From a virus, in IMG/VR virus record IMGVR_UViG_3300034107_000725, positions 1 through 64,000 of that record: a stretch of DNA of 64,000 nt; one strand, written 5' to 3'. The notes under the pieces were generated by a model. The model had not been told where the DNA came from and made no database searches. It saw only the letters and a list, made by a program, of their open reading frames with translations. Shown here piece by piece: positions 34,777-62,756 of the stretch. The first letter of the stretch is position 1; each line of letters begins with the position of its first letter. The position numbers and the translations under genes were made by a program.

Positions 34777-35574
34777 ATGATTAGGATTGGATTTATCTGC
34801 CCAACATATGACGCTCTGTCGTTGGCCAGCTACACTCATAAGGCGTTGGAGTCGTTCTTCGACACAACGCCTTCAGGTGTTGCTATTGTCGTAGACGACG
34901 GTTCAAAAGGTTGGACGAAGGAATACGCGGATTCTTTGTACGAGATAGGAAACCAACAAGCAGGAACAGAGACACATATTATTAGGTTTAAAGAAAAAGG
35001 AGGTTTGACTAGAAGCTGGAATGCCGGGCTAAGAGAGGCAGATGAGTTAGGGTTGGACTACGCGATAGCCGGTAACAACGATGTGATATTCTCGTACCGC
35101 TGGTACGAGGGTTTACTTCATGCCTTGACTAATGGCTATGATTTGGTGGGTCCGCTATCCAACGCCCCTGGAGTGACAGCACAGGGTTTGCAGGAAATTC
35201 AGCGGTATATCCCTACGTATGAAGCTACAGACGACTTGGTAGCGATAGATAAAGTCGCAGCTGAGTTAAAACGTAAAAACACTGGAAAGGTGGCAAAGTG
35301 TACTGTCAACGGATTTTTTCTGATGGCAGCTTTGTCAACGTGGCGGGTGGGCAAATATGACGATGCAAACTACTTTTGCCCGGTAAACGAGAAGATGCCT
35401 TCGGGTCGACCCAATCTTACACCGCTCATGACTGGTAATGAGGACGAACTACAGCACAGATGGCGGGCCAAGGGTTTGAAATCGGCTGTAGCTTTGAGCA
35501 GCTTTATTTTCCACTACAGAGCGGTTTCACGTGGCGAACGATACAAGAAAGGTCTTTGGTATCGACAATCATGA
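34777..35574 (+). CDS. Glycosyltransferase family 2-like
   Basis: A 265-residue GT-A enzyme. The start MIRIGFICPTYDALSLAS, a VVDDGSKGW motif (nucleotide-sugar binding) and a GGLTRSWNAGL segment are typical for GT2. The metal-binding triad is replaced by NNDV near residue 103, which is a usual variant. It opens a run of five glycan-related genes after the portal. The stop overlaps the next start. Confidence 0.85.
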   Translation: MIRIGFICPTYDALSLASYTHKALESFFDTTPSGVAIVVDDGSKGWTKEYADSLYEIGNQQAGTETHIIRFKEKGGLTRSWNAGLREADELGLDYAIAGNNDVIFSYRWYEGLLHALTNGYDLVGPLSNAPGVTAQGLQEIQRYIPTYEATDDLVAIDKVAAELKRKNTGKVAKCTVNGFFLMAALSTWRVGKYDDANYFCPVNEKMPSGRPNLTPLMTGNEDELQHRWRAKGLKSAVALSSFIFHYRAVSRGERYKKGLWYRQS

Positions 35575-36311
35575 GTAAAACATTAGTTTACAGCTGTGTT
35601 ACAGGTAACTACGACGACCTGCTTTCCGCAATCCTTGCTTCAACAGGTGTGGCGGAGAAAGACGTGCGTTATGTGCTATACACGGATAAAGTGCAACCAG
35701 ATTCTAATATTTTCATCTACACCGCAAAACATTCAGACATCACCTGGGAACTTCACCCGTTACTTTGGCAGCACCCGTCCTGTCCGAGACGAACAGCCCG
35801 ATGGCATAAAATTAACAGTCATCTGCTACCAGGAAGACATAAATACACGATATGGCTTGACGGGTCTCAAAAGATAAAGAAAATTCCGCTGGCCTCTCGC
35901 GTGCTGGCAAGCGTGCCCAATAATACGTTGCTGGCTGCCTTTAAACATCCGCAAAGAAGCTGCGTATACGAAGAAACCTCGGCATGCATGAACCAGAAAA
36001 AAGATGACCCAGCTCTGCTAAGAAGTCAGGCAGGTCATTATCGGAAGGAGGGCTACCCGGAAAATAATGGCATGGTTGAGACTGGTTGTGTACTCCGTAA
36101 AAACTGTACTCAGGTTGCAAACTTTAACAAAAATTGGTGGCAGCAGTTGGAGAAATTCAGTTCGCGAGATCAGATGGGATTTAACTATGCAGCCTGGCAG
36201 ACTGGTATTTCGTATCATCTTCTACCGGGCAGCGGCACTAAATCGGAATTCTTCGATTATGTGAAGCACAAAAGGCGGGGAAGTAAAAGCAACAAAGGCG
36301 ACAGTCAATGA
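35571..36311 (+). CDS. DUF616-type glycosyltransferase, copy 1
   Basis: A 246-residue protein with the marks of the DUF616/TOD1 glycosyltransferase family: a YSCVTGNYDD start, YVLYTD, WHKINSHLLPG, IWLDGS (the D-x-D position) and SSRDQMGFNYAAW. The ATG overlaps the previous stop (ATGA), so translation is coupled. The adjacent gene is a clear paralogue. Family members act on glycans or glycoproteins in bacteria and plants. Confidence 0.8.
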   Translation: MSKTLVYSCVTGNYDDLLSAILASTGVAEKDVRYVLYTDKVQPDSNIFIYTAKHSDITWELHPLLWQHPSCPRRTARWHKINSHLLPGRHKYTIWLDGSQKIKKIPLASRVLASVPNNTLLAAFKHPQRSCVYEETSACMNQKKDDPALLRSQAGHYRKEGYPENNGMVETGCVLRKNCTQVANFNKNWWQQLEKFSSRDQMGFNYAAWQTGISYHLLPGSGTKSEFFDYVKHKRRGSKSNKGDSQ

Positions 36312-37021
36312 GTAAGCTCTTGGTCTACAGTTGTGTCACAGGCGGTTATGACGACATCTACGCTGGAATACTGGCTTCAACGGGTGCCGAGAGTCCTGAC
36401 GTTCGTTACGTGCTTTACACAGATCAGCTAGCTCAAAATGCTCCACCCAGACAGTTCAAACTCAAAGAATCTGCAATCAGTTGGGAGTTGAGACCACTGA
36501 TCTGGAGTCACCCTCTGTGCAAGATCCGAACAGCTCGATGGCACAAAGCGAACAGCCACCTGCTACCTGACGACGTGGATCATGTCTTGTGGCTTGACGG
36601 CACACAGCGGATTAAAAACATATCGCTATCAACCCAGCTGACAACTCCGCTGCAGACTGTCTGCGAGCTTGCCGCGTTCAAACACCCTGACCGCATATGT
36701 GTCTATCAAGAACTCATGGCCTGTCGCAAATGGAAAAAAGACAACTTTGAATTGATGCAGCGGCAGCTGGAAGGCTACAAAGCAGAAGGCTATCCAGCAT
36801 ACAACGGTCTAGTCGAAACTACTTGCGTATTCAGAGCTCACCGCAGTCCAAAAATCATAGCGTTCAACAGACTTTGGTGGCAGCAGATGGATCAACACAG
36901 CTTCCGAGACCAGCTGAGCTTTAACTATGCCGCTTGGAAGTTGAGTCTCCCTTTTGGTATTATCCCAGGCAACCGAACAAACTCTCCATTCTTTGACTAC
37001 GTACATCACAAGCACGGTTGA
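36308..37021 (+). CDS. DUF616-type glycosyltransferase, copy 2
   Basis: A 237-residue paralogue of the upstream gene: LVYSCVTGGYDD, YVLYTD, WHKANSHLLP, LWLDGTQRIKN and SFRDQLSFNYAAW follow the same order. The two are tandem duplicates that have diverged, so they probably transfer different sugars or link to different acceptors. The start overlaps the upstream stop by four bases. Confidence 0.8.
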   Translation: MSKLLVYSCVTGGYDDIYAGILASTGAESPDVRYVLYTDQLAQNAPPRQFKLKESAISWELRPLIWSHPLCKIRTARWHKANSHLLPDDVDHVLWLDGTQRIKNISLSTQLTTPLQTVCELAAFKHPDRICVYQELMACRKWKKDNFELMQRQLEGYKAEGYPAYNGLVETTCVFRAHRSPKIIAFNRLWWQQMDQHSFRDQLSFNYAAWKLSLPFGIIPGNRTNSPFFDYVHHKHG

Positions 37022-37042
37022 GTTTCACCTCAGGAGCATCCC

Positions 37043-38110
37043 GTGCTTAAAGTCGGTATCTTCACTCCCTACGTCCGCGGCGAGACTACGTTGGCGGCGG
37101 TACAGTTAGCCGACTGGTTGTTGCGGTGTGGCATCGAAGTTACGATCTTGGCCGAAGGTCGTATTGATTCCGGTATCCACCCAGTATGGGATAACAAAGT
37201 AAAACGAGCTACTCGCAAGACAGTCTATGCCTGGGCATATGGCTGTACGCATCTTTGCTGGTTCAGTGCCAACTTTGCAGCTGTGCGTGCAGCTCGACTG
37301 GTTGCACCGGACAGTCCTAAACGACGTACGCAAAACTTCTTCTTCCCCAGTTGGAATGGTTGGGGTCGAGAGCAGGAAGCGATGGTTTTGTTGTGCCAGC
37401 AGACCATATGCCTGAGCCAGGACATGGCATACTGGATAGATAAAAAATACTTTCAAACTGCGGTGATTCGCACGTGGGTCAATCTAGTCTCTCCAGCGTC
37501 TTTACTCTTTCCCAGAGTTGGTAGGCTGGACGTGACTGCAACACGGCTACTGGCAGTGATCACCAAGTCTGTTGAACTGGACATCGGTAACCAGTTGTTC
37601 AGCGTGTTTGACACCCTCTTAGACGGACACTCTGGACTACATGTGACCTTCCTGCTGGAACATTCGCTTCCCAAGGACTATCGAAAACAACTTGCAAATA
37701 TTAAACAAAAGCACGAAGACCGCGTAACTATTGTTACCGGACCACCATACTACGAGTACGTACAGTTAGCCAGACAACACGACTGGGTTTACCTGGCTAG
37801 CACAAGGCACACTTATGGTTCAATACTATCAACACTGATGAGTAGTTCTGTGCCCATCATCTGCCACGACGTCCCACCTGTGAGGAGTTACGTGGCAAAC
37901 AATTTCTCAGGAAAACTGATCAACTGTGACTTGATAGAAAGCCCGGGACCTGTGGCGGTAGTCGAGCTTGACGATGTGAGTCATACATTGGATAGCCTGC
38001 TTATCAGTCCTGACACAGTGATGAGAGCGATACAGACAAATATGGCTATATCACTGCAAAACAAACAAAGAGTCTTTGAACAGTTCATCTTTAGCGAGTT
38101 CATGAAGTGA
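37043..38110 (+). CDS. GT-B fold glycosyltransferase (GT4-like)
   Basis: A 355-residue protein with the GT-B layout: N-terminal VGIFTPYVRGETTLAAVQLA, a middle linker and a C-terminal donor-binding half with STRHTYGSILSTLMSSSVPI, which fits the E/G-x7-E-type motif of GT4 loosely. GTG is the start codon, preceded by CAGGAGCA. It follows the DUF616 pair in the glycan cluster. Confidence 0.75.
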   Translation: MLKVGIFTPYVRGETTLAAVQLADWLLRCGIEVTILAEGRIDSGIHPVWDNKVKRATRKTVYAWAYGCTHLCWFSANFAAVRAARLVAPDSPKRRTQNFFFPSWNGWGREQEAMVLLCQQTICLSQDMAYWIDKKYFQTAVIRTWVNLVSPASLLFPRVGRLDVTATRLLAVITKSVELDIGNQLFSVFDTLLDGHSGLHVTFLLEHSLPKDYRKQLANIKQKHEDRVTIVTGPPYYEYVQLARQHDWVYLASTRHTYGSILSTLMSSSVPIICHDVPPVRSYVANNFSGKLINCDLIESPGPVAVVELDDVSHTLDSLLISPDTVMRAIQTNMAISLQNKQRVFEQFIFSEFMK

Positions 38111-38685
38111 TTGGACATCCACACAACATTATCGTGGCCGGAACTCCAGGAGCCTGGACAAACACAGTAGCTACTGCGATAGCAAGCCAAGGCTGGGCCG
38201 TTACATGGCCCGGACAAGACCTGAGTAATCCGGAGGTTCAGAAGTTTCTGAACAACAATGCCCAGAATATTGAGATGCACAATATCCACCAGCAGATATG
38301 CGAGTGGCACAATGTTTCTCTTTTCAGCCCCAAGCTGCCTGACTATTACCATCCACCATACCCAGGACCCGCGGAGTACCTTTCCAAGTTTGAAGGCCCG
38401 GTAGTTCTCTCAAGTATCTCACTACCTCCGTTCTTGGACTTATGGGCGAATGCCAGTAACGTGGTGATTCACATCGAGGCCACTGAAGCGGAAGACCTTG
38501 CCATGCTCAACCAGTGGTCGCAAAACAAGTTTGCCCTAGACCACGTCAAAGCAGTTCGTGACAATTACATCAACCGATACCATAGACACCTGAAGTTGTT
38601 TCCAAAGGTGTTTACCATGACCAATGCGGAAGCTAAAGATCGAAAGCTAACCGAGCTGGCTCGATTTTTAAATTCCGCATTTTAG
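38107..38685 (+). CDS. Unknown protein with P-loop-like start, glycan cluster
   Basis: A 192-residue protein beginning HNIIVAGTPGAWTNTVATAI, which loosely resembles the phosphosulfate loop of sulfotransferases (GTPRSGTT) but lacks the key Arg/Ser. It could be a divergent nucleotide-binding enzyme that modifies the glycan. GTG start, overlapping the GT4 gene. The last 16 bases before its stop include a copy of the 13-bp palindrome (38670-38682), encoding its final residues. Confidence 0.6.
   Translation: MIGHPHNIIVAGTPGAWTNTVATAIASQGWAVTWPGQDLSNPEVQKFLNNNAQNIEMHNIHQQICEWHNVSLFSPKLPDYYHPPYPGPAEYLSKFEGPVVLSSISLPPFLDLWANASNVVIHIEATEAEDLAMLNQWSQNKFALDHVKAVRDNYINRYHRHLKLFPKVFTMTNAEAKDRKLTELARFLNSAF
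38670..38682 (-). repeat. 13-bp palindromic element, end of coding sequence
   Basis: AAATTCCGCATTT, the reverse orientation of the element, ends one base before the TAG stop codon of the preceding gene and lies about 40 bases upstream of the tubulin-like gene. Confidence 0.55.
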
Positions 38686-38724: not shown

Positions 38725-40002
38725 ATGCCAGACGAATCACTAGAACAACAGATGAACGCGTCCTTGAGTAAGGCCGTAGGTCAACCCGTTGCAAGCATTG
38801 CTCCAGCACCTCCGGTAGCTGTGTCAGCACCTACACCACTGGCTCCACCAGTTGGTGCAGTCAACCTGGGGAACATCGCAGCAGCTTTGCACCCCACAGC
38901 ACACCGACAGGCGGCAACGCAAGTCGTCGTCAACGACACGTTCCCATACGATGTTGCTTTCAACATGGCATTCCTGGGTTCAGGCCAAGGCGGAGCCAGG
39001 CTGGCTTCCAGCTTCTACGGTCTGGGCTACAGACGTGTAGGGTTGTTCAACACAGCAGAAAGCGATTTCCAAGGCCTGCCTGAAGAGATTCAACGACACA
39101 CGCTGCCGTTGGGCGGTGCAGCCAAAGATGCTCGGTTCGCCGAGCAGGCACTGGTAGGACACGAAGAGGAAATCTGGGATTTGCTACAGAGGTCCTGGGG
39201 CAACGACACAGACTACGGTTTGATCTGTGTAGGGCTTGGCGGCGGCACGGGCTCAGGCACAAGCGGCAGGCTTGTACAGATCGCTCGAGAATACATGGAG
39301 AGCAAGGGCAAACAACCTCGTGTTGGTGTGATTGCTTCAATTCCTTCCCCTACAGAAGGACAACAAGTCTGTCGTAACGCGATCACAGCATTCCAGCATC
39401 TGCTGGAGTTGAAGGTCAGCCCGCTGATTCTGATCGATAACGCTCGGATCAATCAACTGTACCGTCCAGGCATGTCACAGTTGTACACCGTGGCTAACAA
39501 CACGGTCAGTCAACTGTTTCACCTGTTCAACCAATTAGCAGCTGTACACAGTCCGCTAATTACCTTTGACCGAAGCGAACTGGCTCAGTTGCTGGACAAC
39601 GGCATCTGTGTCATGGGGGCAGCCAGCCTCCAGAACGTCACGAGTCCAGCAGACATCTCTGCGGCCATTCGGGATCAGCTCACCAACAATGTGTTGGCTG
39701 AAGTGGATCTCAAGCAAGGCACAAAGGGAGCCTGCCTCTTTGTCGGGGATCAGAATCACCTGGACAACCTAAGCATGGATTTCTTCGATGCCGGATTCGT
39801 TCAGATGAATCGCACGCTCAAAGGCGGCGACAGTGTGGTTCACCGTGGTGTCTATCTTGGAGCAGCTCCGGGACTTCAAGCCTATGCCATGATAAGTGAT
39901 TTAAAACCCCCAATTGCCACGTTGGCAAAGTTGGCCAAAGAGGCCAATATTACAAAGAATCAACTCGGTGGAATCGCCAAATTCTTGGGCGTAAATGACT
40001 GA
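38725..40002 (+). CDS. Tubulin/FtsZ-like GTPase (phage tubulin)
   Basis: A 425-residue member of the tubulin superfamily. After a Pro/Ala-rich tail (residues 1-70), the N-terminal GTPase core shows MAFLGSGQGGARLASSFY (T1-like loop), the tubulin signature GGGTGSG (residues 172-178) and the T7 loop SPLITFDRSELAQLL (Asp282, Glu285). At the position of FtsZ Asp212 it has Glu, as alpha-tubulin does. Phage homologues (TubZ, PhuZ) build dynamic filaments that centre phage DNA or carry capsids. It lies after the portal and glycan genes, with no ParR or TubR-like gene visible beside it. A similar chaperone or bacterial FtsZ copy is unlikely because of the low similarity to FtsZ. Confidence 0.9.
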   Translation: MPDESLEQQMNASLSKAVGQPVASIAPAPPVAVSAPTPLAPPVGAVNLGNIAAALHPTAHRQAATQVVVNDTFPYDVAFNMAFLGSGQGGARLASSFYGLGYRRVGLFNTAESDFQGLPEEIQRHTLPLGGAAKDARFAEQALVGHEEEIWDLLQRSWGNDTDYGLICVGLGGGTGSGTSGRLVQIAREYMESKGKQPRVGVIASIPSPTEGQQVCRNAITAFQHLLELKVSPLILIDNARINQLYRPGMSQLYTVANNTVSQLFHLFNQLAAVHSPLITFDRSELAQLLDNGICVMGAASLQNVTSPADISAAIRDQLTNNVLAEVDLKQGTKGACLFVGDQNHLDNLSMDFFDAGFVQMNRTLKGGDSVVHRGVYLGAAPGLQAYAMISDLKPPIATLAKLAKEANITKNQLGGIAKFLGVND

Positions 40003-41250: not shown

Positions 41251-41820
41251 GTGACAGGCGACGAACTGAAGTATGAGATGAGCTACTGGGGCAACTGCTG
41301 CAACACGTTCGACGAAGAACAGAAGCAATATGTCTATGCCCGGTTCATGGGATTGGAGGTCAATCACTACAAGATCCAGTTACCAGCTTCAGACATTATG
41401 GACGTAGGTGGAGGACCTGCGAGCATGTTGCTCAAGGTTCCAAACCTTATCCACGGCTTGGTAGTAGATCCGATCGAATACCCTGATTGGACCGTACAAC
41501 GCTATAAGACAAACAACATTACGGTACGCAAAGCGTATGGCGAGAATATACTAATCGACCGTAACTGGGATGAGGTCTGGCTCTACAACTGTTTGCAGCA
41601 CGTTAACGATCCAGAAAAGATCGTAAATAACTGCATGCGGTCTGGTAAGGTTTTTCGAATCTTTGAGTGGATCAACACTCCAGTGTATGAAGGGCATCCA
41701 CACTCTTTGACGAAAGAGATGCTTGATCGCTGGATCGGGCAATCAGGTGGAACTGTGTTGCTGAATGAAAGTGGCTGTGATGGCTGGGCATACTATGGCT
41801 GCTTCAAGACAGGGAATTAA
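41251..41820 (+). CDS. Class I SAM-dependent methyltransferase
   Basis: A 189-residue methyltransferase. Motif I is IMDVGGGPASMLLKV, the acidic residue ending beta 2 is in VVDPIEYP, and NCLQHVNDPEKIVNNC matches the motif after strand 4. The size is near the minimum for the fold. It could modify a glycan or small molecule rather than DNA, since no DNA-methylase DPPY motif is present. GTG start with AAGGGG upstream. Confidence 0.78.
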   Translation: MTGDELKYEMSYWGNCCNTFDEEQKQYVYARFMGLEVNHYKIQLPASDIMDVGGGPASMLLKVPNLIHGLVVDPIEYPDWTVQRYKTNNITVRKAYGENILIDRNWDEVWLYNCLQHVNDPEKIVNNCMRSGKVFRIFEWINTPVYEGHPHSLTKEMLDRWIGQSGGTVLLNESGCDGWAYYGCFKTGN

Positions 41821-42837: not shown

Positions 42838-43037
42838 CTATCTTTGAACCAGTTAACCAGCTAGAAGTTGATACGCCTAAAGGTCGTGCGTCAGTGTGGT
42901 TGGTAACGGAGTACGGAACGGAGACAGAAAAGGTTTTTACCTGTATCCTCAAAGAAACGGGTGAGATCTGGGAGTTCACCAACCACGATATCAAAGCAGT
43001 GATAAACATCACTTTTGGGCGAGGAACTGTTAAATGA
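42834..43037 (+). CDS. Small hypothetical protein
   Basis: A 67-residue, beta-rich protein (VDTPKGRASVWLVTEYG) that overlaps both neighbours by four bases (ATGA junctions). Function unknown. Confidence 0.62.
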   Translation: MTIFEPVNQLEVDTPKGRASVWLVTEYGTETEKVFTCILKETGEIWEFTNHDIKAVINITFGRGTVK

Positions 43038-44296
43038 TTGCAGGGCAGAAGATCCGGCTGGCCGGGTTTCGAGTTAGCGGTTTCGCTGCTCGGGATCTGG
43101 CCACGTTCCTTACCTGGCCTGATGTTGAGTTAGTTGCTGTTGCAGATGTAGACCAGCTGGCTGTTGATGCATTCTGTGGCCGGTATCCTGAAACGGTTGG
43201 TTTTCAGGACTATCGTCAGTTACTGGCTGAGTACGGTTCTGCACTGGATGCTGTGATTATTGCGACACCAGATCACATGCATGCACCGATGGCAGCAGCA
43301 GCAATGCAGCACGATTTAGCGGTTTATCTGCAAAAGCCTTTAACCCACACTGTGTATGAAGCAAGGCAGTTAAGCCAGATTGCAAAAGAGCGTAATCTGG
43401 TGACTCAAATGGGTATTCAGATACAGGCTTCCAGCGAGTATCGTACGGCTGTGCACTGGATTCGATCGGGAGTGATTGGGCAGGTTAAAGAGGTGCATAT
43501 CTGGAGCGGCGATAACTGGGGCGACGAGGCAGAAAAACCCATGGCAAATGATCCCGTACCCCAGACGCTTGATTGGGATGGCTGGCTGGGCGTGGCAGAG
43601 TATCGCCCGTATATTGACAGATATTACACGCCGTATGAGTGGCGACGCCGTGTTGATTTTGGAACAGGTGCGATCGGGGATAAAGGTTGTCACTTATTCG
43701 ATCCGCTGTTTTGTGCTTTGGATCTAACTGCTCCAATCTCTGTTTGCAGCAAAGCCAAGCCACCAGGATATAACTGGCGACCACACAATCAAATCAACTA
43801 CACCTTTCCTGAGACAGACCAAACTAAAGGCCCGCTGCCCGTATATTGGTACGACGGTAACAACAAACCACCAAAGCACTTCAATCGCTTGTTTAACAAA
43901 CAGTGGTTTCCAGCTCACGGCTCAATTTGCGTAGGCACAGAAGGCTCGCTGTTTTTGGGTCATCTTTTTGAACCCGTAGTTGTAGGTGGACGACCCGGAC
44001 CAAGGCCTGTGCTGCCTGCGGGAAATCACTACCGCCAGTTTCTTGATGCCGTCAGGGGGCAGGGTAAAACCACAGCAGATTTTGAGTTCTCAGGACCGCT
44101 GACAGAGGCGGTCTTGTTAGGCTGTATTGCGTTGCGGTTTCCCGGAGTTGAGCTGCACTGGGATGCAAAAACGATGACGTTTCCAAACCACCCGGAGGCG
44201 AATGCATTCGTGCATAAAACTTACCGAAAGGGCTGGGAAGTTTCAGGAATCCTTGGCATAATACCTGAGACTTTTAACCACCAACACGGCTTCTAA
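43034..44296 (+). CDS. Gfo/Idh/MocA-type oxidoreductase
   Basis: A 420-residue oxidoreductase with an N-terminal Rossmann half (VELVAVADVD, IIATPDHMH, LQKPLTHTVYEAR) and a C-terminal alpha/beta half (GHFYDP-like GCHLFDPLFCALDL, GNHYRQFLDAV, GPLTEAVLLG, FVHKTYRKGWEV). These blocks match sugar-acting family members common in Planctomycetota and lacking in most phages, so the gene was probably acquired from a host. The usual GxGxxG of the cofactor loop reads GFRVSG, with Arg at the second Gly. That may change cofactor choice. It is flanked by phage small genes, overlapping the previous one, so it is now part of the phage operon. A sugar-oxidation role in nucleotide-sugar or glycan synthesis fits the many glycosyltransferases. 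Confidence 0.85.
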   Translation: MIAGQKIRLAGFRVSGFAARDLATFLTWPDVELVAVADVDQLAVDAFCGRYPETVGFQDYRQLLAEYGSALDAVIIATPDHMHAPMAAAAMQHDLAVYLQKPLTHTVYEARQLSQIAKERNLVTQMGIQIQASSEYRTAVHWIRSGVIGQVKEVHIWSGDNWGDEAEKPMANDPVPQTLDWDGWLGVAEYRPYIDRYYTPYEWRRRVDFGTGAIGDKGCHLFDPLFCALDLTAPISVCSKAKPPGYNWRPHNQINYTFPETDQTKGPLPVYWYDGNNKPPKHFNRLFNKQWFPAHGSICVGTEGSLFLGHLFEPVVVGGRPGPRPVLPAGNHYRQFLDAVRGQGKTTADFEFSGPLTEAVLLGCIALRFPGVELHWDAKTMTFPNHPEANAFVHKTYRKGWEVSGILGIIPETFNHQHGF

Positions 44297-46724: not shown

Positions 46725-47480
46725 ATGCCTATACGCACTGACTCGGTTTCAAGCCTACCCAAGTTTGAACTCCCGATCGTGATACCGGTGTTCAACGGTG
46801 TGACCTACCTCTCAAATACGATCGACTTCTTCAAGGCTCGCGGCTTTGACGAGTACTTGATCTTGAACAACGGGTCAGCGTATCCACCGTTGGAAGAGTA
46901 TCTCAGCAAAGTGCCGGACGGTGTCACTGTGCTGGACCTGCCACACAACCCAGGACCGCGAGTTTTCAACGATCCTGGAATCTACAGCAGACTGCCAGAG
47001 CAGTTTATCCTGACAGACCCTGACTTGGGATTTAAGCCTGAGCTGGATAGGGAATCTGTCCTGCACCTGTTCGAACTGTGCGAGCAGTACAAGCGGTATA
47101 AGCTGGGTTGTGCTCTAAATATCTGGACCGAGGAACCGAGCTGCGTCGATACAGACATAACTACAAAGAAAGGTGAGACCACGATACGCAATATCGAGGA
47201 CAAGTATTACAGACAGTTCCTCGGGGTTACGAAGTACGGCGATACAATCTACGACGCTCCCATCGACACTACGTTCGCGGCTTACGATAAAAGATACTCT
47301 GCAGGTAAGGCTTCCGGAACAAGTGGACGTATCGTTGGTCGCTACTCGGCAGAACACTACGGCTGGTATGACGTGCCACCCATTCCGGCAGACGAATACG
47401 AATACTACAAGGTAGCCGTTAGTACGACTCAGTTTGCTTCCACAGAGTGGGTCAAGAGCGGTAAGAAGTACACATACTGA
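46725..47480 (+). CDS. Glycosyltransferase family 2-like
   Basis: A 251-residue GT-A-like protein. FELPIVIPVFNGVTYLSN is the typical N-terminal strand, LILNNGS is a weak nucleotide-binding match and ILTDPDLGFK carries the D-x-D motif. The C-terminal part has many aromatic residues. It starts three bases after the preceding gene and is followed by another glycosyltransferase gene. Confidence 0.75.
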   Translation: MPIRTDSVSSLPKFELPIVIPVFNGVTYLSNTIDFFKARGFDEYLILNNGSAYPPLEEYLSKVPDGVTVLDLPHNPGPRVFNDPGIYSRLPEQFILTDPDLGFKPELDRESVLHLFELCEQYKRYKLGCALNIWTEEPSCVDTDITTKKGETTIRNIEDKYYRQFLGVTKYGDTIYDAPIDTTFAAYDKRYSAGKASGTSGRIVGRYSAEHYGWYDVPPIPADEYEYYKVAVSTTQFASTEWVKSGKKYTY

Positions 47481-47487
47481 GGTGCTC

Positions 47488-48096
47488 ATGCCGCACAAAA
47501 CGTCGATCAATCAGTTGGTGGAACATGTCTATTGTCTCAACCTGACAAGACGACCTGATCGATGGGCTATGGCTGAAGCCGAGTTTGGGAAAGCCGGTAT
47601 CACAGGCGTTGAAAAGTTTGTTGCAACAGATGGACAAAAAATGCACGCCAGCAAGCTCAAGCCAGGAGCGATGGGACTGACACACACGGTCATGCGAGTG
47701 TTTCACGACGCTGTGCAGAAGGATTATTCAAGCATCCTGATCTTGGAAGACGATGTTGAATTTGCCACAGATCTAAATGAGTCGTTGAGCTGGGCACCTG
47801 ATGACTGGGAAATATTACACTTTGGCGGCAACCACTCACGAGGCAAGCCGAAAAGGCTCAACAATAAGATTGCAGTACCTCACCAGACTTTGGCCTCGCA
47901 TGCCATTGCATTCAAAAGCTGCACGTATGCAAAACTGTTAAGTTTGCTGAACTACGAGAAACAGGTGGTGGATGTCACTTACTCTCGCAACTTGCATCAA
48001 TTCAAGAGCTACGTCTTCGTGCCGTCCATAGCGTGGCAGAAACCATCTTACAGTGATCTTGCAGAGGCGTTTGCCGACTACCCGTTCCTTAGGTAA
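47488..48096 (+). CDS. LPS-type glycosyltransferase family 25
   Basis: A 202-residue member of GT25. VYCLNLTRRPDRWAMAEAEF is the conserved start of the family and ILILEDDVEFA the metal-binding site (EDD). The length is on the short side for GT25. It would add a hexose to a glycan chain. Together with the GT2-like gene before it, it forms a second small glycan cluster. Confidence 0.85.
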   Translation: MPHKTSINQLVEHVYCLNLTRRPDRWAMAEAEFGKAGITGVEKFVATDGQKMHASKLKPGAMGLTHTVMRVFHDAVQKDYSSILILEDDVEFATDLNESLSWAPDDWEILHFGGNHSRGKPKRLNNKIAVPHQTLASHAIAFKSCTYAKLLSLLNYEKQVVDVTYSRNLHQFKSYVFVPSIAWQKPSYSDLAEAFADYPFLR

Positions 48097-50482: not shown

Positions 50483-50800
50483 TTGAAGTACTTTGAGTTC
50501 AAACCCATATCGATTCTGATGCTCGCCTTGTTTTCAAGCCCGTGTGGGCTGATTCTCCGAGCTTATCTACCGATTACCGCCTGGGTGTTGATCATGGGCG
50601 GTGTTTTCTTTGGTACATGGATTTCTGTGGTGGGTGATGGCTGGTTGCAGTATGTGTTATGCTCCGGCTGGTTCTGTCTGGGTTACGCTCTTTCAACCAA
50701 TGCTCCGGAGATTCACTATGCTAAGACCAACGCTTCACGAGCTGGGTATCCATCACCACACCGACAAAGCCGTTTATCACCTGTTCACCGTGATCTATGA
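50483..50800 (+). CDS. Hypothetical membrane protein
   Basis: A 105-residue protein with three likely transmembrane helices in its first ~70 residues (ISILMLALFSSPCGLIL, AWVLIMGGVFFGTWI, YVLCSGWFCLGYAL). The start is TTG and the last 83 bases overlap the methyltransferase gene, so the C-terminal end is uncertain. It fills a gap that has no other gene. Confidence 0.5.
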   Translation: MKYFEFKPISILMLALFSSPCGLILRAYLPITAWVLIMGGVFFGTWISVVGDGWLQYVLCSGWFCLGYALSTNAPEIHYAKTNASRAGYPSPHRQSRLSPVHRDL

Positions 50801-51356
50801 CACGTGGTTTTCAAAGATAAGAGACGAGCAGATTCGTTTGTTGGAGATAGGTGTTTTGATCGGCGGCTCGCTACGCATGTGGGAAGAGTACTTTCCAGGT
50901 GCTGAGATTCACGGAGTAGATATTGACGACAGGACAGAACATGCAACCTCCCGCATCTCTGTTTACCGTGCGGATCAAACCAAGATAGAAGATCTAGAGG
51001 CACTACCTCGAGATTGTCACATCATCGTTGACGACGGTGGCCATACGATGCTGCAACAGCAGATAACACTCAACACGTTGTTTGACAGTCATCTCCTACC
51101 GGGCGGCACCTACGTTCTTGAAGATCTGCACACCTCTGACGTGGAACACTATCCGAAGTGGGCAGCCTACGGTTCAAACATGAGAAACAACACACTAAAG
51201 CTGCTGGAAGATTTGCAACGAGGCGTACTTTCAGAGAATAATGAGTATTACATCAGTGGTGCTGATTTCTGTCGATTAAGGGATCAGATCGCTTTTATTG
51301 AGATCGTAAGGGTCAAAGCGGACTCAGTCACGTCACGCATCGTCAAGAAGACATGA
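50718..51356 (+). CDS. SAM-dependent methyltransferase (MycE/TylF-like)
   Basis: A 212-residue enzyme. The N-terminal HTDKAVYHLFTVIYD, motif I LLEIGVLIGGSLRMWEEYFP and HGVDIDD (beta 2 acid) match the macrocin O-methyltransferase-like family, which methylates sugars in natural products and glycans. IIVDDGGHTM is the motif IV region and holds the likely metal ligands. ATG 50718 follows GGAG by seven bases; the in-frame extension to 50601 is out of the conserved region. A sugar O-methyltransferase fits the many glycosyltransferases. Confidence 0.82.
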   Translation: MLRPTLHELGIHHHTDKAVYHLFTVIYDTWFSKIRDEQIRLLEIGVLIGGSLRMWEEYFPGAEIHGVDIDDRTEHATSRISVYRADQTKIEDLEALPRDCHIIVDDGGHTMLQQQITLNTLFDSHLLPGGTYVLEDLHTSDVEHYPKWAAYGSNMRNNTLKLLEDLQRGVLSENNEYYISGADFCRLRDQIAFIEIVRVKADSVTSRIVKKT

Positions 51357-53967: not shown

Positions 53968-53981
53968 ATTCCGTTGACAAT

Positions 53982-56594: not shown

Positions 56595-56617
56595 AGAAGT
56601 ATCCAGGAGACACAACG

Positions 56618-57295
56618 ATGCTTGAGCTACCAACCGTCACAGCAATCTGCTACGAAGGCAGTCGGCTGAGTCCTGACCAGATTAAGTACTATGAATTAAT
56701 GCTGCGGCATGTGAATAGGACTGTCCGGTTCAACTCTATCAAGTTTTTTGCTCACACTCCCCACCAGTTTGAAGGAGTTGAGCAGATTGCCGTGCCGCAT
56801 ACTAGCCGAGCCGACTACAGTCAATGGTGCATTCATAACTTGGGAACATACTTTGACACGGAACACGTGTTAATTTTTCAGTGGGATGGTTATCCGCTGA
56901 ACCCACACCTGTGGACTGATGAATTTTTACAGTATGACTACATTGGAGCCCCTTGGTCCTGGAAGCAGCACCATAGATTTCGCCGATCAAACCCAGAGCA
57001 CCTGGTTGGTAACGGGGGTTTCAGTCTTCGCAGCCGTAAGCTATATCAAGAGCTTTTAAAGCACCCTGTAAGCAAAGAAAACGAGGATCTCTACATCTGC
57101 TGCGATTTGCGACCAAAACTAGAGGCCAACGGAGTCAAGTTTGCACCGATGGACGTAGCCAAGCGGTTTGCCGTTGAGGTGCAGCTTTCCCCTGAGCACA
57201 CGATAACAAATACTTTTGGGTTTCACGGTGGGCATAAAAGCTGGGTCGAAGCCATACCATCATACCCACAGTATGCGAACAACTTCCTGCCGTGA
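56618..57295 (+). CDS. DUF5672 glycosyltransferase-like
   Basis: A 225-residue protein of the DUF5672 family: VLIFQWDGYPLNP, FLQYDYIGAPWSWK, VGNGGFSLRSRKLYQ and the C-terminal FGFHGGHKSW are its hallmark blocks. The family is widespread in bacterial glycan loci and in phages and is thought to be GT-A glycosyltransferases. AGGAGA precedes the ATG. A decayed copy of its C-terminal end follows at 57292-57363. Confidence 0.83.
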   Translation: MLELPTVTAICYEGSRLSPDQIKYYELMLRHVNRTVRFNSIKFFAHTPHQFEGVEQIAVPHTSRADYSQWCIHNLGTYFDTEHVLIFQWDGYPLNPHLWTDEFLQYDYIGAPWSWKQHHRFRRSNPEHLVGNGGFSLRSRKLYQELLKHPVSKENEDLYICCDLRPKLEANGVKFAPMDVAKRFAVEVQLSPEHTITNTFGFHGGHKSWVEAIPSYPQYANNFLP

Positions 57296-57363
57296 GTAAA
57301 ATCGCAGCTTATTTCAGATTTCATGGTGGACATGGAAGTCGGATTGAGGCTATAAATACGTAG
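57292..57363 (+). pseudogene. Decayed duplicate of DUF5672 C-terminus
   Basis: Directly after the DUF5672 stop, one frame reads YFRFHGGHGSRIEAINT and then TAG, matching the end of the gene before it (TFGFHGGHKSWVEAIPSY). So this 72-base piece is the remnant of a second copy of the gene's 3' end, the rest of which is gone. Confidence 0.7.
57327..57356 (+). promoter_or_regulatory. Candidate promoter of the non-coding RNA
   Basis: TGGACA (57327-57332) and TATAAA (57351-57356) are five-of-six matches to the sigma70 consensus with an 18-base spacer. It lies in the decayed gene remnant, so it may also be a chance match. Confidence 0.45.
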
Positions 57364-57743
57364 TCGCAATACACGGGAAGAGTCTTCCACTATGACCTTG
57401 ACCTGCGAAGATGAGTGAGTAGCCAGCTGGGGTGAGGCGGGTCTCTCAATTACCGGACTACACCAGCTGGTAGGTTGTTTGTCTTATCTTCAGGACAAAT
57501 AACAGGACGTTGCCGGAGGGAACACCTCGCTAACGACGTCTCGGGCAACTGTAACGTGATGGATCCATGGAAGTTTTGACTCCTCCGGGTCTCCTTTTGC
57601 TTCCCCGTCACAAACTTGGAGCCGCTATCGCTCGCAGACGATATGCTTCGACTGAGGTAAAGCCCAAAAGGCCGATGCCAGGTGTGGTTGCCTAGCTCAT
57701 CTTTTCTTCTTCAGCTGCAGCTTCGGCTGCAGCTTTTTCTTTT
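57363..57743 (+). ncRNA. Candidate structured RNA, about 380 nt
   Basis: This gap of ~330 bases without a gene has many paired segments: a CCAGCTGG/CCAGCTGG stem (57433-57483), TTTGTC/GACAAA, GTTGCC/GGCAAC and a nested three-part stem of GTGATGG/CCGTCAC, GGAAG/CTTCC and GACTC/GGGTC at about 57557-57610. Upstream is a promoter-like site and the unit ends at a UUCG terminator, 57713-57743. I cannot match it to tmRNA, RNase P or 6S RNA by eye. GOLLD- or ROOL-like large phage RNAs are candidates for a search. The signals are independent, but no alignment supports the fold. Confidence 0.5.
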
Positions 57744-58414
57744 AAGCGGTGCTTGTGAGCAACACCCAGTAGACCCGATAGCCCTGAGTATCTTGTGCCT
57801 TCGAACTGACGGGCGTTGACGCAAACAAACCAGTCCACGATGACGGATTCCAGGCTGGTCTGACGCAAGTGCCGGGATGGCTCGATCACTTCAGTGACAA
57901 CCACGCGATCGCCGTAGTGTTCCATAAACTTACGTTGAGTATCGAGGTTGTCTGTGGCGAGAAAGAGCTTCTCGTCGGGACGCAGTTCAGCATCAAGCCA
58001 CTCAAAGAACTCTTCGTCACGCGTGACACCATCGTGGCCCGTTGCCGGTATCTTGTCGGTTCTACGAGCATGGATAGCCAGATAAGACGGAGTCAGGCGA
58101 CTCATCACTTCATCGATACGAGCCTGAGTGCGAGGTCGGGGAATCATATCGTGGAAGTAATAGTTGCTAAACGGATCGTAAGGAGGAAGAAAATCGTAGC
58201 CTTTGTAGTGTGGTTTTTTTGTATCGTCGGTGAACTCTACCCCAGGAATTGGTTCTAAGTGATCCAGATAGCGTCCAGGACAGTCGGCGTTGGGAACCCA
58301 GCAGACGACCAGGATGTTATTGTTGGCTCGGGAGCGTTGCAGGAAGCTGAAAAGAACACGTATACGGTCGGCAAAACCTGTAGAGGTCTGGACCTTGAAT
58401 CGTTGACCTGCCAT
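57692..58414 (-). CDS. Fucosyltransferase-like glycosyltransferase
   Basis: The second reverse-strand gene, 240 residues. TGFADRIRVLFSFLQRSR recalls the GLGNRL start of NodZ/FUT8-type fucosyltransferases, YLAIHARRTDK the HxRRTD GDP-fucose site, and FLATDN the later motif, followed by ARQFEGTRYSGLSGL. The ATG at 58414 has AGGAGA upstream and starts after a good promoter, so the in-frame TTG at 58465 is rejected. The C-terminal tail (KEKAAAEAAAEEE) is encoded across the UUCG terminator of the + strand RNA. It would transfer fucose or a related sugar from a GDP donor. Confidence 0.78.
   Translation of the reverse strand: MAGQRFKVQTSTGFADRIRVLFSFLQRSRANNNILVVCWVPNADCPGRYLDHLEPIPGVEFTDDTKKPHYKGYDFLPPYDPFSNYYFHDMIPRPRTQARIDEVMSRLTPSYLAIHARRTDKIPATGHDGVTRDEEFFEWLDAELRPDEKLFLATDNLDTQRKFMEHYGDRVVVTEVIEPSRHLRQTSLESVIVDWFVCVNARQFEGTRYSGLSGLLGVAHKHRLKEKAAAEAAAEEEKMS
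57713..57743 (+). terminator. UUCG-loop intrinsic terminator inside a convergent gene
   Basis: AGCTGCAGC and GCTGCAGCT (57713-57721, 57726-57734) form a perfect 9-bp stem around TTCG, followed by TTTTCTTTT. It ends + strand transcription of the non-coding region while the same bases encode the C-terminus of the reverse-strand glycosyltransferase. Confidence 0.88.
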
Positions 58415-58448
58415 GATATCGGGGTCTCCTGTGACATGAATAGGGTGT

Positions 58449-58476
58449 ATTATAGTCCAGCTCAAGTCTTCTGCAA
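58449..58476 (-). promoter_or_regulatory. Sigma70-type promoter for reverse-strand gene
   Basis: On the - strand TTGCAG (58476-58471) and TATAAT (58454-58449) are separated by 16 bases. The expected start lies about 27 bases before the ATG at 58414. The -35 box touches a copy of the 13-bp palindrome. Confidence 0.7.
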
Positions 58477-58488
58477 AATACGGAATTT
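58476..58488 (+). repeat. 13-bp palindromic element, 5' UTR copy
   Basis: AAATACGGAATTT lies four bases before the dioxygenase ATG and abuts the reverse promoter. An operator role at this divergent promoter is plausible. It is identical over 18 bases to the copy at 41089-41106. Confidence 0.65.
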
Positions 58489-58491
58489 GCC

Positions 58492-59283
58492 ATGAAATCT
58501 GTGCATGCTTACAGCTTCGAAACCACTGGGATGGCGATTATCCCAAAAGCCCTGAGTCTTGAGAAGGTAGCTGAGGCCAAGCAGCTGATACAGAATAACT
58601 GGCCGAGCGGTGCTCCCTGGAAGTTTCCTGTGTTGCACCTGGGCCGAGTCTTCTGGGAGATGATGACGCAGCCTGTGATGCTTGAGCTGTGTCAGCAGTT
58701 CGCCGGAGATCACTTCAGAATGGATCACGCCTTCGGTCTGACAAGTAACGGGGCTCACGCTCAACTCCACGGTGGACCGCAATCCAGCCAGTACTCCTGC
58801 TTCTACTTGCCGCTAAGCGGTGCTCAACATCCTGGAATTGCCGGGCAGTTGAACTTTGGGTTTTGCCTGGAAGGACAAAGCTCGTACACAGGTGGATTTT
58901 GCTATATACCGGGCAGTCATAAGTCTGTTGATCCGAGAGCGGGTCGTGAGGTCCTGGCTGAGGTTTACCGTAACGATTTTACTCATCATTCGATCGTAGT
59001 ACCACGCCTGGCAGCCGGAGACATGATTCTGTTCACAGAGGCTCTGATTCATGGTGATACGGGTTGGCGGAACCTCACACCCGGTAGTTGTCGAATGCAG
59101 GTCTATTACAAGATGACACCCGGGTTCATGTGCTGGCGTGACCCTGCGGAAAATGCTCACCTGTTGCAGTATGCCAAGACAGATTTAGAACGACGAATGA
59201 TGGCAGCACCTTGGACAGGGCGGTATAGTGAGACGGCCACGGCCATGGGCATCACCAACTCAAGACGGGAACCAACAGTATGA
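58492..59283 (+). CDS. Phytanoyl-CoA dioxygenase-like (Fe/2OG)
   Basis: A 263-residue 2-oxoglutarate-dependent dioxygenase of the PhyH superfamily. QLHGGPQ, QLNFGFCLEG, GGFCYIPGSHKS and FTEALIHGD follow the layout of the LHGG-type subgroup that I recall as common in planctomycetes and marine bacteria. The usual HxD iron motif is not evident in that form, so iron ligands need a model. It lacks a clear ribosome site because the palindrome occupies the upstream bases. It could hydroxylate a sugar, lipid or other metabolite; the substrate is unknown. Confidence 0.78.
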   Translation: MKSVHAYSFETTGMAIIPKALSLEKVAEAKQLIQNNWPSGAPWKFPVLHLGRVFWEMMTQPVMLELCQQFAGDHFRMDHAFGLTSNGAHAQLHGGPQSSQYSCFYLPLSGAQHPGIAGQLNFGFCLEGQSSYTGGFCYIPGSHKSVDPRAGREVLAEVYRNDFTHHSIVVPRLAAGDMILFTEALIHGDTGWRNLTPGSCRMQVYYKMTPGFMCWRDPAENAHLLQYAKTDLERRMMAAPWTGRYSETATAMGITNSRREPTV

Positions 59284-60209
59284 AGCTAGCCGTAATCATC
59301 CGCATCCTTGGTAACGAAAATCCACCACGAGACATCCCCGGTGAACGCGTCAAGGTGTTAAAACACATTTTGGAAAACGAACCGCAGCCTCCTGAAGTCG
59401 TACGGTTCTTCATCCTTAACCGAATCGTTTCAGACGAGTACCGTAAAGAGCTTCAGACTTTGCTGGAGTCTTACCAGCTTCCAGTGGTGATAATTCCGTT
59501 TAACTGGCGGATAAAAACCACTGTGGAATCGGTGGCTATCCACGGAATTGCGATCAACCATGCCCGTAATGTTGCCATTGCCTGTGGGGCAAACGTCGCT
59601 CGTTACACGATCGTGCTTGACGGTGACTGTGGGTTCACGGAAGAAGGTCTGTCTCCAGTGTTAGAAGAGATGAGACGAGACAGGTACAAGTATCTCAGCA
59701 TCCCACACCGAAGAGACGGGCAGGAGCGGCAAGGCGAACCCATGCTGGCGTTTCGTAACGACTCAGAGCTTAGGTTTGACGAGCTCTTGGCGTTTGGGCA
59801 AAAGGATAAATTAGAGCTGCTGTTCCAGCTGGGCCATGATCCAACACCATACTCTGGACACCTTAAGATTGAAGGAGACCAGACCAAGTTGGTAGGCGAA
59901 GTCATACACTACGCGACAGGCGAACCGGAGATTGAAGCGGACAACAAAGCCAGAGAAGCCGCTCGTCGTGCGTCTTTACAGGGGCTTGCAAGACAAATAG
60001 TAAAGCAAAAAGCCGAACGACTGCAGGAACAACGAAGACTCAGATACGAGATAGTCAGGCGGGAATGGGAAAAAAAAACTACAGGCTCTTCCATTCAGCG
60101 ATTTGATGGACACGGCAAACTAGACACTGTTACAATGATTTGCAGCTGTGGTTTGCCACAGTGTAGCTCTTTCAGGGACGAAGGAGGTTCGCCATGCAAG
60201 TATCTTTGA
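59280..60209 (+). CDS. Glycosyltransferase-like protein with Cys tail
   Basis: A 309-residue GT-A-like protein. The N-terminal alpha/beta part has VRFFILNRIVSDEY and INHARNVAI, and IVLDGDCGFTEEG carries the D-x-D. The middle has SIPHRRDGQER. The last ~60 residues are a basic coiled segment and then a tail with four Cys (CSCGLPQC and CKYL end). ATGA overlap with the dioxygenase gene links them in one operon. Confidence 0.72.
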   Translation: MKLAVIIRILGNENPPRDIPGERVKVLKHILENEPQPPEVVRFFILNRIVSDEYRKELQTLLESYQLPVVIIPFNWRIKTTVESVAIHGIAINHARNVAIACGANVARYTIVLDGDCGFTEEGLSPVLEEMRRDRYKYLSIPHRRDGQERQGEPMLAFRNDSELRFDELLAFGQKDKLELLFQLGHDPTPYSGHLKIEGDQTKLVGEVIHYATGEPEIEADNKAREAARRASLQGLARQIVKQKAERLQEQRRLRYEIVRREWEKKTTGSSIQRFDGHGKLDTVTMICSCGLPQCSSFRDEGGSPCKYL

Positions 60210-60231
60210 AAGGCAGGTGATCGTATCTCGG

Positions 60232-60270
60232 TCGTGCCCGCCCCAGAAAATACTGTTAGGACGGGCACGA
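60232..60270. other. Hairpin with 21-base loop
   Basis: TCGTGCCCG and CGGGCACGA pair around a 21-base loop, followed by TTCGTTCT. Weak terminator or mRNA 3' structure between the glycosyltransferase gene and the next gene. Confidence 0.5.
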
Positions 60271-60305
60271 TTCGTTCTCTGTGAATTCCAGGCAAGGATA
60301 TCTCT

Positions 60306-60932: not shown

Positions 60933-60947
60933 GTTCGGATAATACTG

Positions 60948-60982
60948 GGACCTGAAGCTGTGGCCACAATTTCAGGTCCTTT
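60948..60982 (+). terminator. Intrinsic terminator
   Basis: GGACCTGAA (60948-60956) and TTCAGGTCC (60971-60979) form a 9-bp stem, the loop itself includes the palindrome TGTGGCCACA, and TTTCTCT follows. Confidence 0.7.
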
Positions 60983-61006
60983 CTCTAGATCTCAAGGATG
61001 ACCCTC

Positions 61007-61849: not shown

Positions 61850-61905
61850 TGACAAGTTCGTGATTGATACAAAGTAGAGTCATGGGTCTCGCTACCCCAG
61901 GAGAG

Positions 61906-61939
61906 TGGCAGTCTGGTTTCGACCGGACTGCCATTTTTT
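61906..61939 (+). terminator. UUCG-loop intrinsic terminator
   Basis: A 12-bp stem (61906-61917 with 61922-61933, one G-U pair) around TTCG, followed by TTTTTT. It ends the transcription of the glycine-rich protein gene. The gap 61850-61988 otherwise holds no gene. Confidence 0.93.
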
Positions 61940-61988
61940 ATTGATTATTGGTTAGAATAGCGACTCGATATTCATCCTGGAGCCACGC

Positions 61989-62756
61989 ATGCGAAAAGCG
62001 ATTCTCGTCACCTCTGTTATTGCACCTGAAATGGAGTTGCCGTTAAATCTGGGCAACCGCAGATCCGCATTCACAATTCGTGAGCGACTGATTCAAACCG
62101 TCAGCACACTACACTCGCTAACCGTACAGCAGGGTGATGCTCAGATCTATTTCTGCGATGCCTCAGAGCCTGACTACAGTGAGTTCTTTGATCAGTACTA
62201 CCCCAACGTAAAATATCTGCACTTACAGGCAACAGATCCCACATTGGCTGCTGAAGTCAGAACTGTGGCAAACAAGAGTATTGGCGAAGCTCATATGGTT
62301 CTGTCCCTGTGGGACGTCTATCGCAAGGAACTACTGGAGGCGGATTTTATCATCAAGGCCACAGGTCGGTATTTTTACGAGAACCTGCACAACGAGTACT
62401 TCACCGCAGAGAATCTTGACAAGTTTTTGTTTACCTACCACTCCACTGATCAGCGACCTTGGATTGACCATGAGGGCTTCGACTGGTCGCTGGCCAAGAA
62501 TTTACTCAACCCAACAGAGTATCGGCACGTCTTGAAGACGACTCTCTACGGATTTGGACGGAAACAGACGCTGCGATACTTTAAAGCAGTCAAAGAACTC
62601 ATGTTCAAGCTCTATCGTCCGCAGTACACGTTGTACGATGTCGAAAACTTATTGGCTTGCGAATTAGGTTACGAACTGGCCAGCAATCAGTTTGTTCGCG
62701 TGAATTGGCAGTACTTAGGCTGGAACAGTGTCAGTGGAGAATTTATTAAAATATAG
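61989..62756 (+). CDS. Putative glycosyltransferase-like protein
   Basis: A 255-residue protein with a GT-A-like start (ILVTSVIAPEM) and DFIIKATGRYFYENL, a motif I have seen in capsule or LPS sugar enzymes. There is no clear DXD, so the family is uncertain. TAGAATA, 30 bases upstream, may be its -10 box. AGGAGAG-like sites lie before the ATG (TGGAG). It is the last of the glycan-like genes in the window. Confidence 0.6.
   Translation: MRKAILVTSVIAPEMELPLNLGNRRSAFTIRERLIQTVSTLHSLTVQQGDAQIYFCDASEPDYSEFFDQYYPNVKYLHLQATDPTLAAEVRTVANKSIGEAHMVLSLWDVYRKELLEADFIIKATGRYFYENLHNEYFTAENLDKFLFTYHSTDQRPWIDHEGFDWSLAKNLLNPTEYRHVLKTTLYGFGRKQTLRYFKAVKELMFKLYRPQYTLYDVENLLACELGYELASNQFVRVNWQYLGWNSVSGEFIKI

Follow-up and report, generated by a model that had tools for sequence, protein, structure and literature searches.

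Glycosyltransferase genes in the portal and capsid operons of a large uncultured phage suggest glycosylation of its own virions

The large, uncultured tailed phage studied here, which encodes its own RNA polymerase, carries about 17 glycosyltransferase (GT) genes on a contig of 193,990 bases (IMGVR_UViG_3300034107_000725). Ten of them, supported at varying strength, lie in the window we analysed, i.e., bases 1–64000 of the contig, and about seven lie outside it. A few GTs are fixed in virion gene clusters, two belong to families associated with collagen-like genes, and the remainder behave as interchangeable extras. Such a distribution suggests that the phage glycosylates its own particles, and we see an even chance that it does so with two conserved GT groups while carrying a third, variable one. 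The earlier note on this DNA had described about eleven GT-like genes as a single multi-step glycan pathway. This is confirmed in part: the set is real, yet it is not one system, and falls into three layers. The one-pathway reading is not supported, as relatives divide these genes into a core set and a set largely confined to this virus. A chance model was not needed for the set, since the matches are homologies and the core ones are conserved across relatives.

Homologues of the portal, the capsid protein and the multisubunit RNA polymerase link the phage to the lineage of Salmonella phage Arash and Vibrio phage D181 (against Arash: portal 4e-111 with an ortholog profile, RNAP beta E=0, beta' 8e-101, capsid 2e-73). 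In a DNA-level search against cultured phages, this contig gave 0 matches, and a photosystem gene, sought as a host marker, was not found. Nor was a nucleotide-sugar synthesis pathway identified, so the sugar donors would come from the host.

The first layer is an operon behind the portal gene, together with a GT gene encoded farther upstream:

32769..34685, + strand: portal gene, heading the core GT operon (25–26% identity to the annotated Arash portal and a D181 protein)
34777..35574, + strand: core GT2 (PF00535, 4.5e-9; 11/11 close relatives, 51–63% identity)
35571..36311, + strand: TOD1/MUCI70-like GT (former DUF616), tandem copy 1 (PF04765, 2.3e-18)
36308..37021, + strand: TOD1/MUCI70-like GT, tandem copy 2 (PF04765, 2.8e-16)
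37043..38110, + strand: core GT-like protein of GT-B fold (AlphaFold pLDDT 85; 9/11 close relatives)
38107..38685, + strand: conserved operon protein with a P-loop-like GTPGAW start (same position in most relatives)
38725..40002, + strand: tubulin/FtsZ-like GTPase closing the operon on its 3' side (PF00091, 1.4e-8; 87% identity in G002)
23547..24374, + strand: core GT-A with a DDD motif and no Pfam family (AlphaFold pLDDT 78; PDB matches overwhelmingly GT-A transferases)

The operon thus runs portal, GT2, TOD1/MUCI70-like GT, GT-B, P-loop-like protein, tubulin, with some neighbouring genes overlapping by 4 bases (e.g., 34777/35571). Portal, GT2 and TOD1 follow in this order in all 26 IMG/VR loci carrying the 34777-type GT2, some of which are near-duplicates; GT-B is present in 23 of them, two lack it and one locus is truncated where its contig stops. 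Every close relative carries at least one TOD1/MUCI70-like copy, and the two copies here are paralogues (phmmer 3e-84). Comparison with relatives delimits the core window group as 23547, 34777, 35571/36308 and 37043. In Arash this GT operon is missing behind the portal, where a small gene and then RNAP beta follow and no GT is annotated. The conserved portal–GT–tubulin operon also marks an uncultured phage clade.

Within this group, 34777 and the TOD1/MUCI70-like pair exceed the Pfam curated cut-off, by which we separate confirmed GT calls from weak ones. Profiles of 23547, 34777, 37043 and 104570 (see below) found nothing useful when run against PDB sequences; the structure-based classification proposed in the earlier note resolved two of these four through AlphaFold models. 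23547, previously called a GT from position 23562, has no Pfam match but is a GT-A by its model; its orthologues occur in 11/11 close relatives (48–57% identity). 37043 had been called GT4-like: its model supports a GT-B fold, with BshA (best TM 0.72), PimA and MshA among its PDB matches, yet it has no intact EX7E motif of the GT4 kind. 23547 is also homologous to the C-terminal domain of 159511–161508 (blastp 1.6e-16), which adjoins a second collagen-like tail gene. Group 1 (GT2, TOD1-like, GT-B) is encoded in the portal operon and would be expressed late, and its acceptor might be an abundant virion protein, which is a guess. Collagen as the sole acceptor of this operon was not upheld: G021, a 208-kb record with the operon, has no collagen match at 1e-8.

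The portal is the sole virion gene identified in the window, where the earlier description of GTs interleaved with virion genes is only partly right. The virion operon itself lies outside, at about 94–160 kb, and holds further GT genes; its major capsid gene (102422) and structural genes 98409, 120396, 121388 and 123323 were identified via Arash. Shortly after the capsid gene comes a GT2-methyltransferase (104570), and then a collagen-like tail-fibre gene, a GT4-methyltransferase (its GT4 domain belonging to gene 117113) and a two-domain GT. The second layer comprises the GT2-methyltransferase, the GT4-methyltransferase, a GT2/HtrL_YibB protein and a GT9/GT-A protein, all near two collagen-like tail proteins, one giant and one smaller. 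The seven relatives that show the GT2-methyltransferase all have it behind the capsid gene; here 104570 ends 52 bases before the giant fibre gene, collagen-1 (105906–114998). Collagen-1, of 3030 aa, contains 536 counted Gly-X-Y triplets with Ser (36%) or Thr (33%) in 69% of Y positions. Lys makes up just 1.1% of the whole protein, and the C-terminus is that of a tail fibre (phrog_9017, 1.5e-16). A Thr/Ser-rich Gly-X-Y protein and a directly adjacent GT gene, as in the BclA/SgtA type, are thus both present; a GT also stands directly beside collagen-1 in G012 and G013. Collagen-1 and GT4 occur together in G000, G012 and G013 and are both missing from G005 and G007, where opposite-strand repeat frames, with mostly Cys at Y, were treated as antisense artefacts.

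The association extends to other viruses. Among viral relatives of the 104570-type GT2, collagen-like repeats lie within 10 kb in 21/42 clusters, compared with 0/26, 0/43 and 0/78 control loci drawn from other genome modules; these clusters are not phylogenetically independent, and repeat thresholds vary between our analyses. An early reading that GT4 always neighbours collagen was refuted, this being so in 10/36 clusters only. Collagens near the GT4 family have a median of 53% Thr at Y, and those near the GT2 family a median of 19% (p 4e-5). However, three relatives (L228, L230 and L237) have no collagen at the GT2-methyltransferase site, yet keep this gene after the capsid gene; the acceptors of the enzyme are therefore not limited to collagen.

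Based on homologies, predicted folds, gene order, repeat composition and statistical linkage, collagen-like fibres are likely one acceptor of virion glycosylation by layers 1 and 2. Group 2 enzymes would O-glycosylate the fibre, with GT4 acting on Thr/Ser at Y of the Gly-X-Y triplets in the way that SgtA modifies BclA3 of Clostridioides difficile, and methyl transfer may cap the sugar. The coating of virions proposed in the earlier note gains support from GTs inside the capsid/tail operon and around the giant fibre gene. A more specific version is possible but somewhat doubtful: a mobile module of GT4 and a Gly-X-Thr collagen fibre would travel across unrelated phage backbones, Thr-at-Y glycosylation stabilising or masking the giant fibre, while the portal–GT2–TOD1–GT-B–tubulin operon would glycosylate a further virion component.

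The third layer spans 46725–62756 and consists mostly of genes found only in this virus; group 3 also includes 68752 and 188738. These window genes are listed together with two enzymes encoded upstream of them:

41251..41820, + strand: accessory methyltransferase-like protein (phrog_3603, unknown function, 2.9e-73; PF08241 0.002, below cut-off)
43034..44296, + strand: GFO/IDH/MocA sugar oxidoreductase, glycoside 3-dehydrogenase-like, seen in no other compared virus (PF01408, 2.3e-14; NF058561 5.9e-82, below its cut-off)
46725..47480, + strand: possible GT2-like protein, only this virus among those compared (PF00535 0.0042, below cut-off)
47434..48096, + strand: GT25, only this virus among those compared (PF01755, 4.1e-6; phrog_2835 glucosyltransferase, 6.7e-10)
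50601..51356, + strand: methyltransferase, only this virus among those compared (phrog_21658, 1.6e-24)
56618..57295, + strand: DUF5672 protein, putative GT, only this virus among those compared (PF18922, 4.3e-22)
57692..58465, − strand: possible fucosyltransferase-like protein with an HxRRxD-like motif, HARRTD, only this virus among those compared (PF10250, O-FucT, 0.0022, below cut-off)
58492..59283, + strand: PhyH-type 2-oxoglutarate dioxygenase (PF05721, 1.3e-6; PDB 4xc9 oxidase/hydroxylase, 1.5e-6)
59280..60209, + strand: GT2-like protein common to G005 and G007 (PF00535 0.027, below cut-off)

In the comparison with relatives, 46725, 47434, 56618, 57692 and 61989 formed the mostly virus-specific group, while 59280 and 58492 each have a counterpart in one or two relatives (for 58492, a 29% relative in G005). 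The earlier calls of GT25, DUF5672, oxidoreductase and dioxygenase are above the Pfam curated cut-off, and those of 46725, 59280 and 57692 have matches below it. 61989, once a possible GT, has no GT match in Pfam, PHROGs or NCBIfam. As for the "two clear sugar-type methyltransferases", 50601 is borne out as a methyltransferase and 41251 is methyltransferase-like. The best PDB match of 47434 is putative glycosyltransferase R655 (9crz, 5e-4); its identification with the mimivirus collagen glucosyltransferase was dropped, the published name of the latter being R699. Group 3 appears to swap between viruses, and would either vary the glycan or modify the host surface.

Host-surface modification is the usual reading of GTs close to tail-fibre regions (PMC7029224), and the GTs might alter an infected cell's LPS, O-antigen or capsule, blocking superinfection as proposed for pelagimyophages. 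The high variability of the accessory GTs between relatives is what surface antigens would predict, and LPS enzymes occur in the GT9 and GT25 families. We nevertheless regard this as unlikely: groups 1 and 2 are fixed in the portal and capsid/tail operons in conserved order, unlike serotype-conversion cargo, and GtrA flippase was not found in G000, G005, G007, G012 and G013 (the control was positive in 7 genomes). The pairing of GtrA with membrane-anchored GtrB, typical of Gtr-type O-antigen conversion, is thus missing, a GtrB-like PHROG appearing only at 0.0097. Rather unlikely, too, is that each GT is independent cargo with its own target, the link to collagen-like genes reflecting only that the two gene types accumulate in hypervariable tail-fibre islands. 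Phage host-recognition islands do contain both kinds of genes (PMC10202952, PMC7029224), and no collagen lies close to half of the GT2 clusters or to 26/36 GT4 clusters. However, GT2 lies within 500 bases of collagen in 12/21 cases versus 2.5 expected within the same loci, the same GT4 accompanies GXT collagen in two unrelated backbones, and Thr enrichment at Y is specific to GT4-associated collagens.

Phage GTs are also established in DNA glycosylation, according to work cited in PMC12619734, and some GTs here could act on a modified base. 23547 sits among replication genes, and the lower-ranked GT-B matches of 37043 include T4 AGT. We find this quite improbable, as it leaves about 17 GT genes and their virion-operon placement unexplained. 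A thymidylate-synthase-type pyrimidine hydroxymethylase (PF00303) was not found in G000 whereas control genomes were positive, and searches for Tet_JBP, AGT and T4-Gluco-transf, run without a positive control, gave 0 matches. The earlier remark that these enzymes exceed the needs of base glycosylation is supported, and our searches did not find the expected partners.

Glycosylation of the phage's own virions, which we favour, has several counterparts. In work on mycobacteriophages (Freeman et al. 2023, as cited in PMC12619734), phage-encoded GTs are likewise linked to glycans on the phages' own capsid and tail tube; as described there, the hosts differ, and it is the C-termini of the subunits of capsid and tail tube that are modified rather than collagen repeats. 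Mimiviruses also combine collagen-like proteins with their own GTs, L230 being a lysyl hydroxylase/glucosyltransferase that modifies collagen (PMC9614988), and our phage has GT25 and 2OG dioxygenase genes. There, however, hydroxylysine is modified, while collagen-1 carries mostly Thr/Ser at Y. A mimivirus-like lysine pathway was rejected because collagen-1 is Lys-poor and because GT25 and PhyH, both accessory, are encoded some 50 kb away from it. Another counterpart is the exosporium of Clostridioides difficile, where SgtA O-glycosylates Thr (and Ser) in the Gly-X-Thr repeats of BclA3 in vitro (PMC7157674). In both cases, the GT gene is immediately beside the collagen-like gene, although one concerns a bacterial spore coat and glycosylation in the phage is a prediction.

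Finally, the GT4 domain of 117113 is 75–77% identical to putative GTs of the cultured Synechococcus phages S-CAM7 and ACG-2014f, which sit in the tail module near a 2OG oxygenase and collagen genes (Thr-rich collagen-like proteins, gp014/gp015, in S-CAM7, an annotated collagen triple helix protein in ACG-2014f), but on a T4-like Kyanoviridae backbone unrelated to that of our phage. Phage GTs are usually read as modifiers of DNA or the host surface; the linkage described here offers a different acceptor, one directly testable now in these cultured phages. If the idea is true, many GTs in the tail islands of marine and freshwater phages need re-interpretation, and phages would be the third non-animal setting of glycosylated collagen-like repeats, after bacterial spore coats and mimiviruses.

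G000 (IMG/VR, 193,990 bases, of which the window covers 1–64000; window coordinates are contig coordinates) is a tailed phage, and virion glycosylation is the best reading of its glycosyltransferases (GTs). Its portal and RNA polymerase share 25–30% identity with those of Salmonella phage Arash and Vibrio phage D181, and its capsid protein has a homologue in Arash. No photosystem gene, as a host marker, was found in G000. Among the links to cultured phages found here, two are closest: one GT, with 75–77% identity to Synechococcus phages, and a helicase tail of ~90 residues common with cyanophages. Both may be transfers. That C-terminal stretch (51353–53428, residues about 600–691) recurs in hundreds of cyanophage and pelagiphage records. 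Nearby, 48174 and 48843 have one domain in common, and a single frame of the virus record G002 matches both 48174 and 51353. The 863-residue product of 54003–56594 carries a borderline domain of a putative metallopeptidase (DUF6782, just under the cut-off), and five of the viruses compared carry relatives of it.

An earlier note had called eleven GT-like genes, of which ten were supported, with unequal strength; the call at 61989 was not. Five exceed curated cut-offs, namely 34777 (GT2), 35571 and 36308 (both TOD1_MUCI70), 47434 (GT25) and 56618 (DUF5672). Predicted structure supports 23547 (GT-A) and 37043 (GT-B), and 46725, 59280 and 57692 (reverse strand) gave matches under the cut-off. The other features considered are as follows, those from 65601 to 188738 with single start positions or full coordinates lying on the contig beyond the window:

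3.6–28 kb, replication and recombination genes (SbcCD, helicases, DnaB-like helicase, primase, PolI-type polymerase, UvsX-like recombinase)
65601, weak GT-B
68752, GT2
69631, possible sulfotransferase, just under the cut-off
82–91 kb, multisubunit RNA polymerase
82004–86443 and 88153–91335, two RNA polymerase large-subunit genes with homologues in Arash
104570, GT2 with a C-terminus read, from sequence alone, as methyltransferase-like (GT2-MT)
117113, GT4 and methyltransferase
118746, GT2 and HtrL_YibB
159511–161508, a single protein that joins a GT9 domain to a GT-A domain, the latter a paralogue of 23547
188738, GT2

The first layer of GTs forms a core operon on one strand, in the order portal (32769), GT2, TOD1, TOD1, GT-B, 38107 and a tubulin-like gene (38725), with 4-base overlaps at three junctions. 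Thirteen relatives, 11 of them close, were compared gene by gene; all 11 close ones had the core GT2 together with one or more TOD1 copies, and nine had the GT-B. An independent scan for GT2 retrieved 26 loci, some of them near-duplicates of a single virus; a portal lay upstream and a TOD1 downstream in all 26, a figure conditional on GT2 being found and not a survey of all portals. The GT-B was present in 23 of these loci and the tubulin-like gene in 17. The latter (38725–40002) encodes a tubulin/FtsZ-like GTPase with 80–87% identity across the closer relatives. Since no annotated GT follows the Arash portal, the core operon looks clade-specific. Among eight distant records having only the portal in common, six yielded no GT2 or collagen matches on searching, while G016 had both and G001 collagen only. 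The acceptor of this layer need not be collagen, because a 208-kb record carries the operon without a collagen match.

The second layer belongs to the virion operon. Ortholog profiles against Arash identified 102422 as the annotated major capsid protein (2e-73), and 98409, 120396, 121388 and 123323 matched proteins annotated as structural. In the capsid-to-tail interval, GT2-MT is followed 52 bases later by a collagen-like gene (105906–114998) and then by 117113 and 118746. GT2-MT, at 34–71% identity, comes after the capsid gene in every one of the seven relatives where the latter was found; most of these also show tail genes, and some have no collagen between. The collagen-like gene has 536 Gly-X-Y triplets by the counting rule used, and Ser or Thr occupies 69% of their Y positions; the C-terminus of its product matches tail-fibre families. 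Further along, 156602 is a second gene for a collagen-like tail protein; it comes before 159511, with one small gene between them, and the GT9/GT-A protein of 159511 is kept in most relatives covering that region. The G005 and G007 records end inside this second gene, the repeats of which probably broke their assembly.

Collagen-like repeats accompanied relatives of 104570 at 46 of 80 loci, and at 21 of 42 after clustering at 80% identity, the clusters not being independent of each other. They were absent from 26 core GT2, 43 portal and 78 helicase loci (Fisher p against 21/42 of 3e-6, 1e-8 and 4e-12, respectively), controls that were drawn from other genome modules and left unclustered, the portal and core GT2 loci coming partly from the same viruses. 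In 12 of the 21 loci no more than 500 bases separated the GT from the collagen frame, against 2.5 expected under random placement.

The cyanophage-like GT is the GT4 domain of 117113; GTs from S-CAM7 and ACG-2014f match it at 75–77% identity, and these two phages are Kyanoviridae with a backbone unlike that of G000. In S-CAM7 the order is the collagen-like gp015, the GT directly after it, one further gene, the gene for a 2OG-Fe(II) oxygenase and then a tail fibre. In ACG-2014f two small genes separate the GT from an upstream gene annotated as a collagen triple helix protein, and PiuC comes directly downstream of the GT. This oxygenase (PiuC; 19814–20410 in S-CAM7, 13073–13666 in ACG-2014f) is a possible collagen hydroxylase. 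Among IMG/VR clusters of the GT4 family, a collagen frame was nearby in 10 of 36 (within 500 bases in five); the other 26 are located elsewhere, and collagen is therefore not the exclusive partner of this family. Collagens near the GT4 family are Thr-rich at Y (median 53%), whereas those near the GT2 family are Gln-rich (Thr 19%; p = 4e-5), in a comparison prompted by the data between loci of common ancestry.

The third layer looks like exchangeable cargo. Among the 13 relatives, 43034, 46725, 47434, 50601, 56618, 57692 and 61989 had no orthologue; 41251 had one in G012, 59280 in G005 and G007, and 58492 a weak one in G005. Four close relatives are long records, and absence from several others is weak evidence because these are fragments. 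The product of 43034–44296, surprising for a phage, is a GFO/IDH/MocA oxidoreductase resembling a bacterial glycoside 3-dehydrogenase (5.9e-82, under that model's cut-off).

Phage GTs may also serve DNA glycosylation or Gtr-type conversion. Against the former, no pyrimidine hydroxymethylase (PF00303) was found in G000; against the latter, GtrA was not found in G000, G005, G007, G012 or G013. Virion glycosylation stays the best reading, with NDP-sugars of the host presumably acting as donors.

Core GTs have been reported in moraphages, another large-phage lineage (PMC12619734), and are therefore not new in themselves. No description of the core operon order, the GT–collagen linkage or the GT4 common to unlike backbones turned up in an open-access literature search. 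For the second layer, the model is SgtA, which acts on BclA3 (PMC7157674); by analogy on the phage side, the collagen-like fibres would be one likely acceptor.
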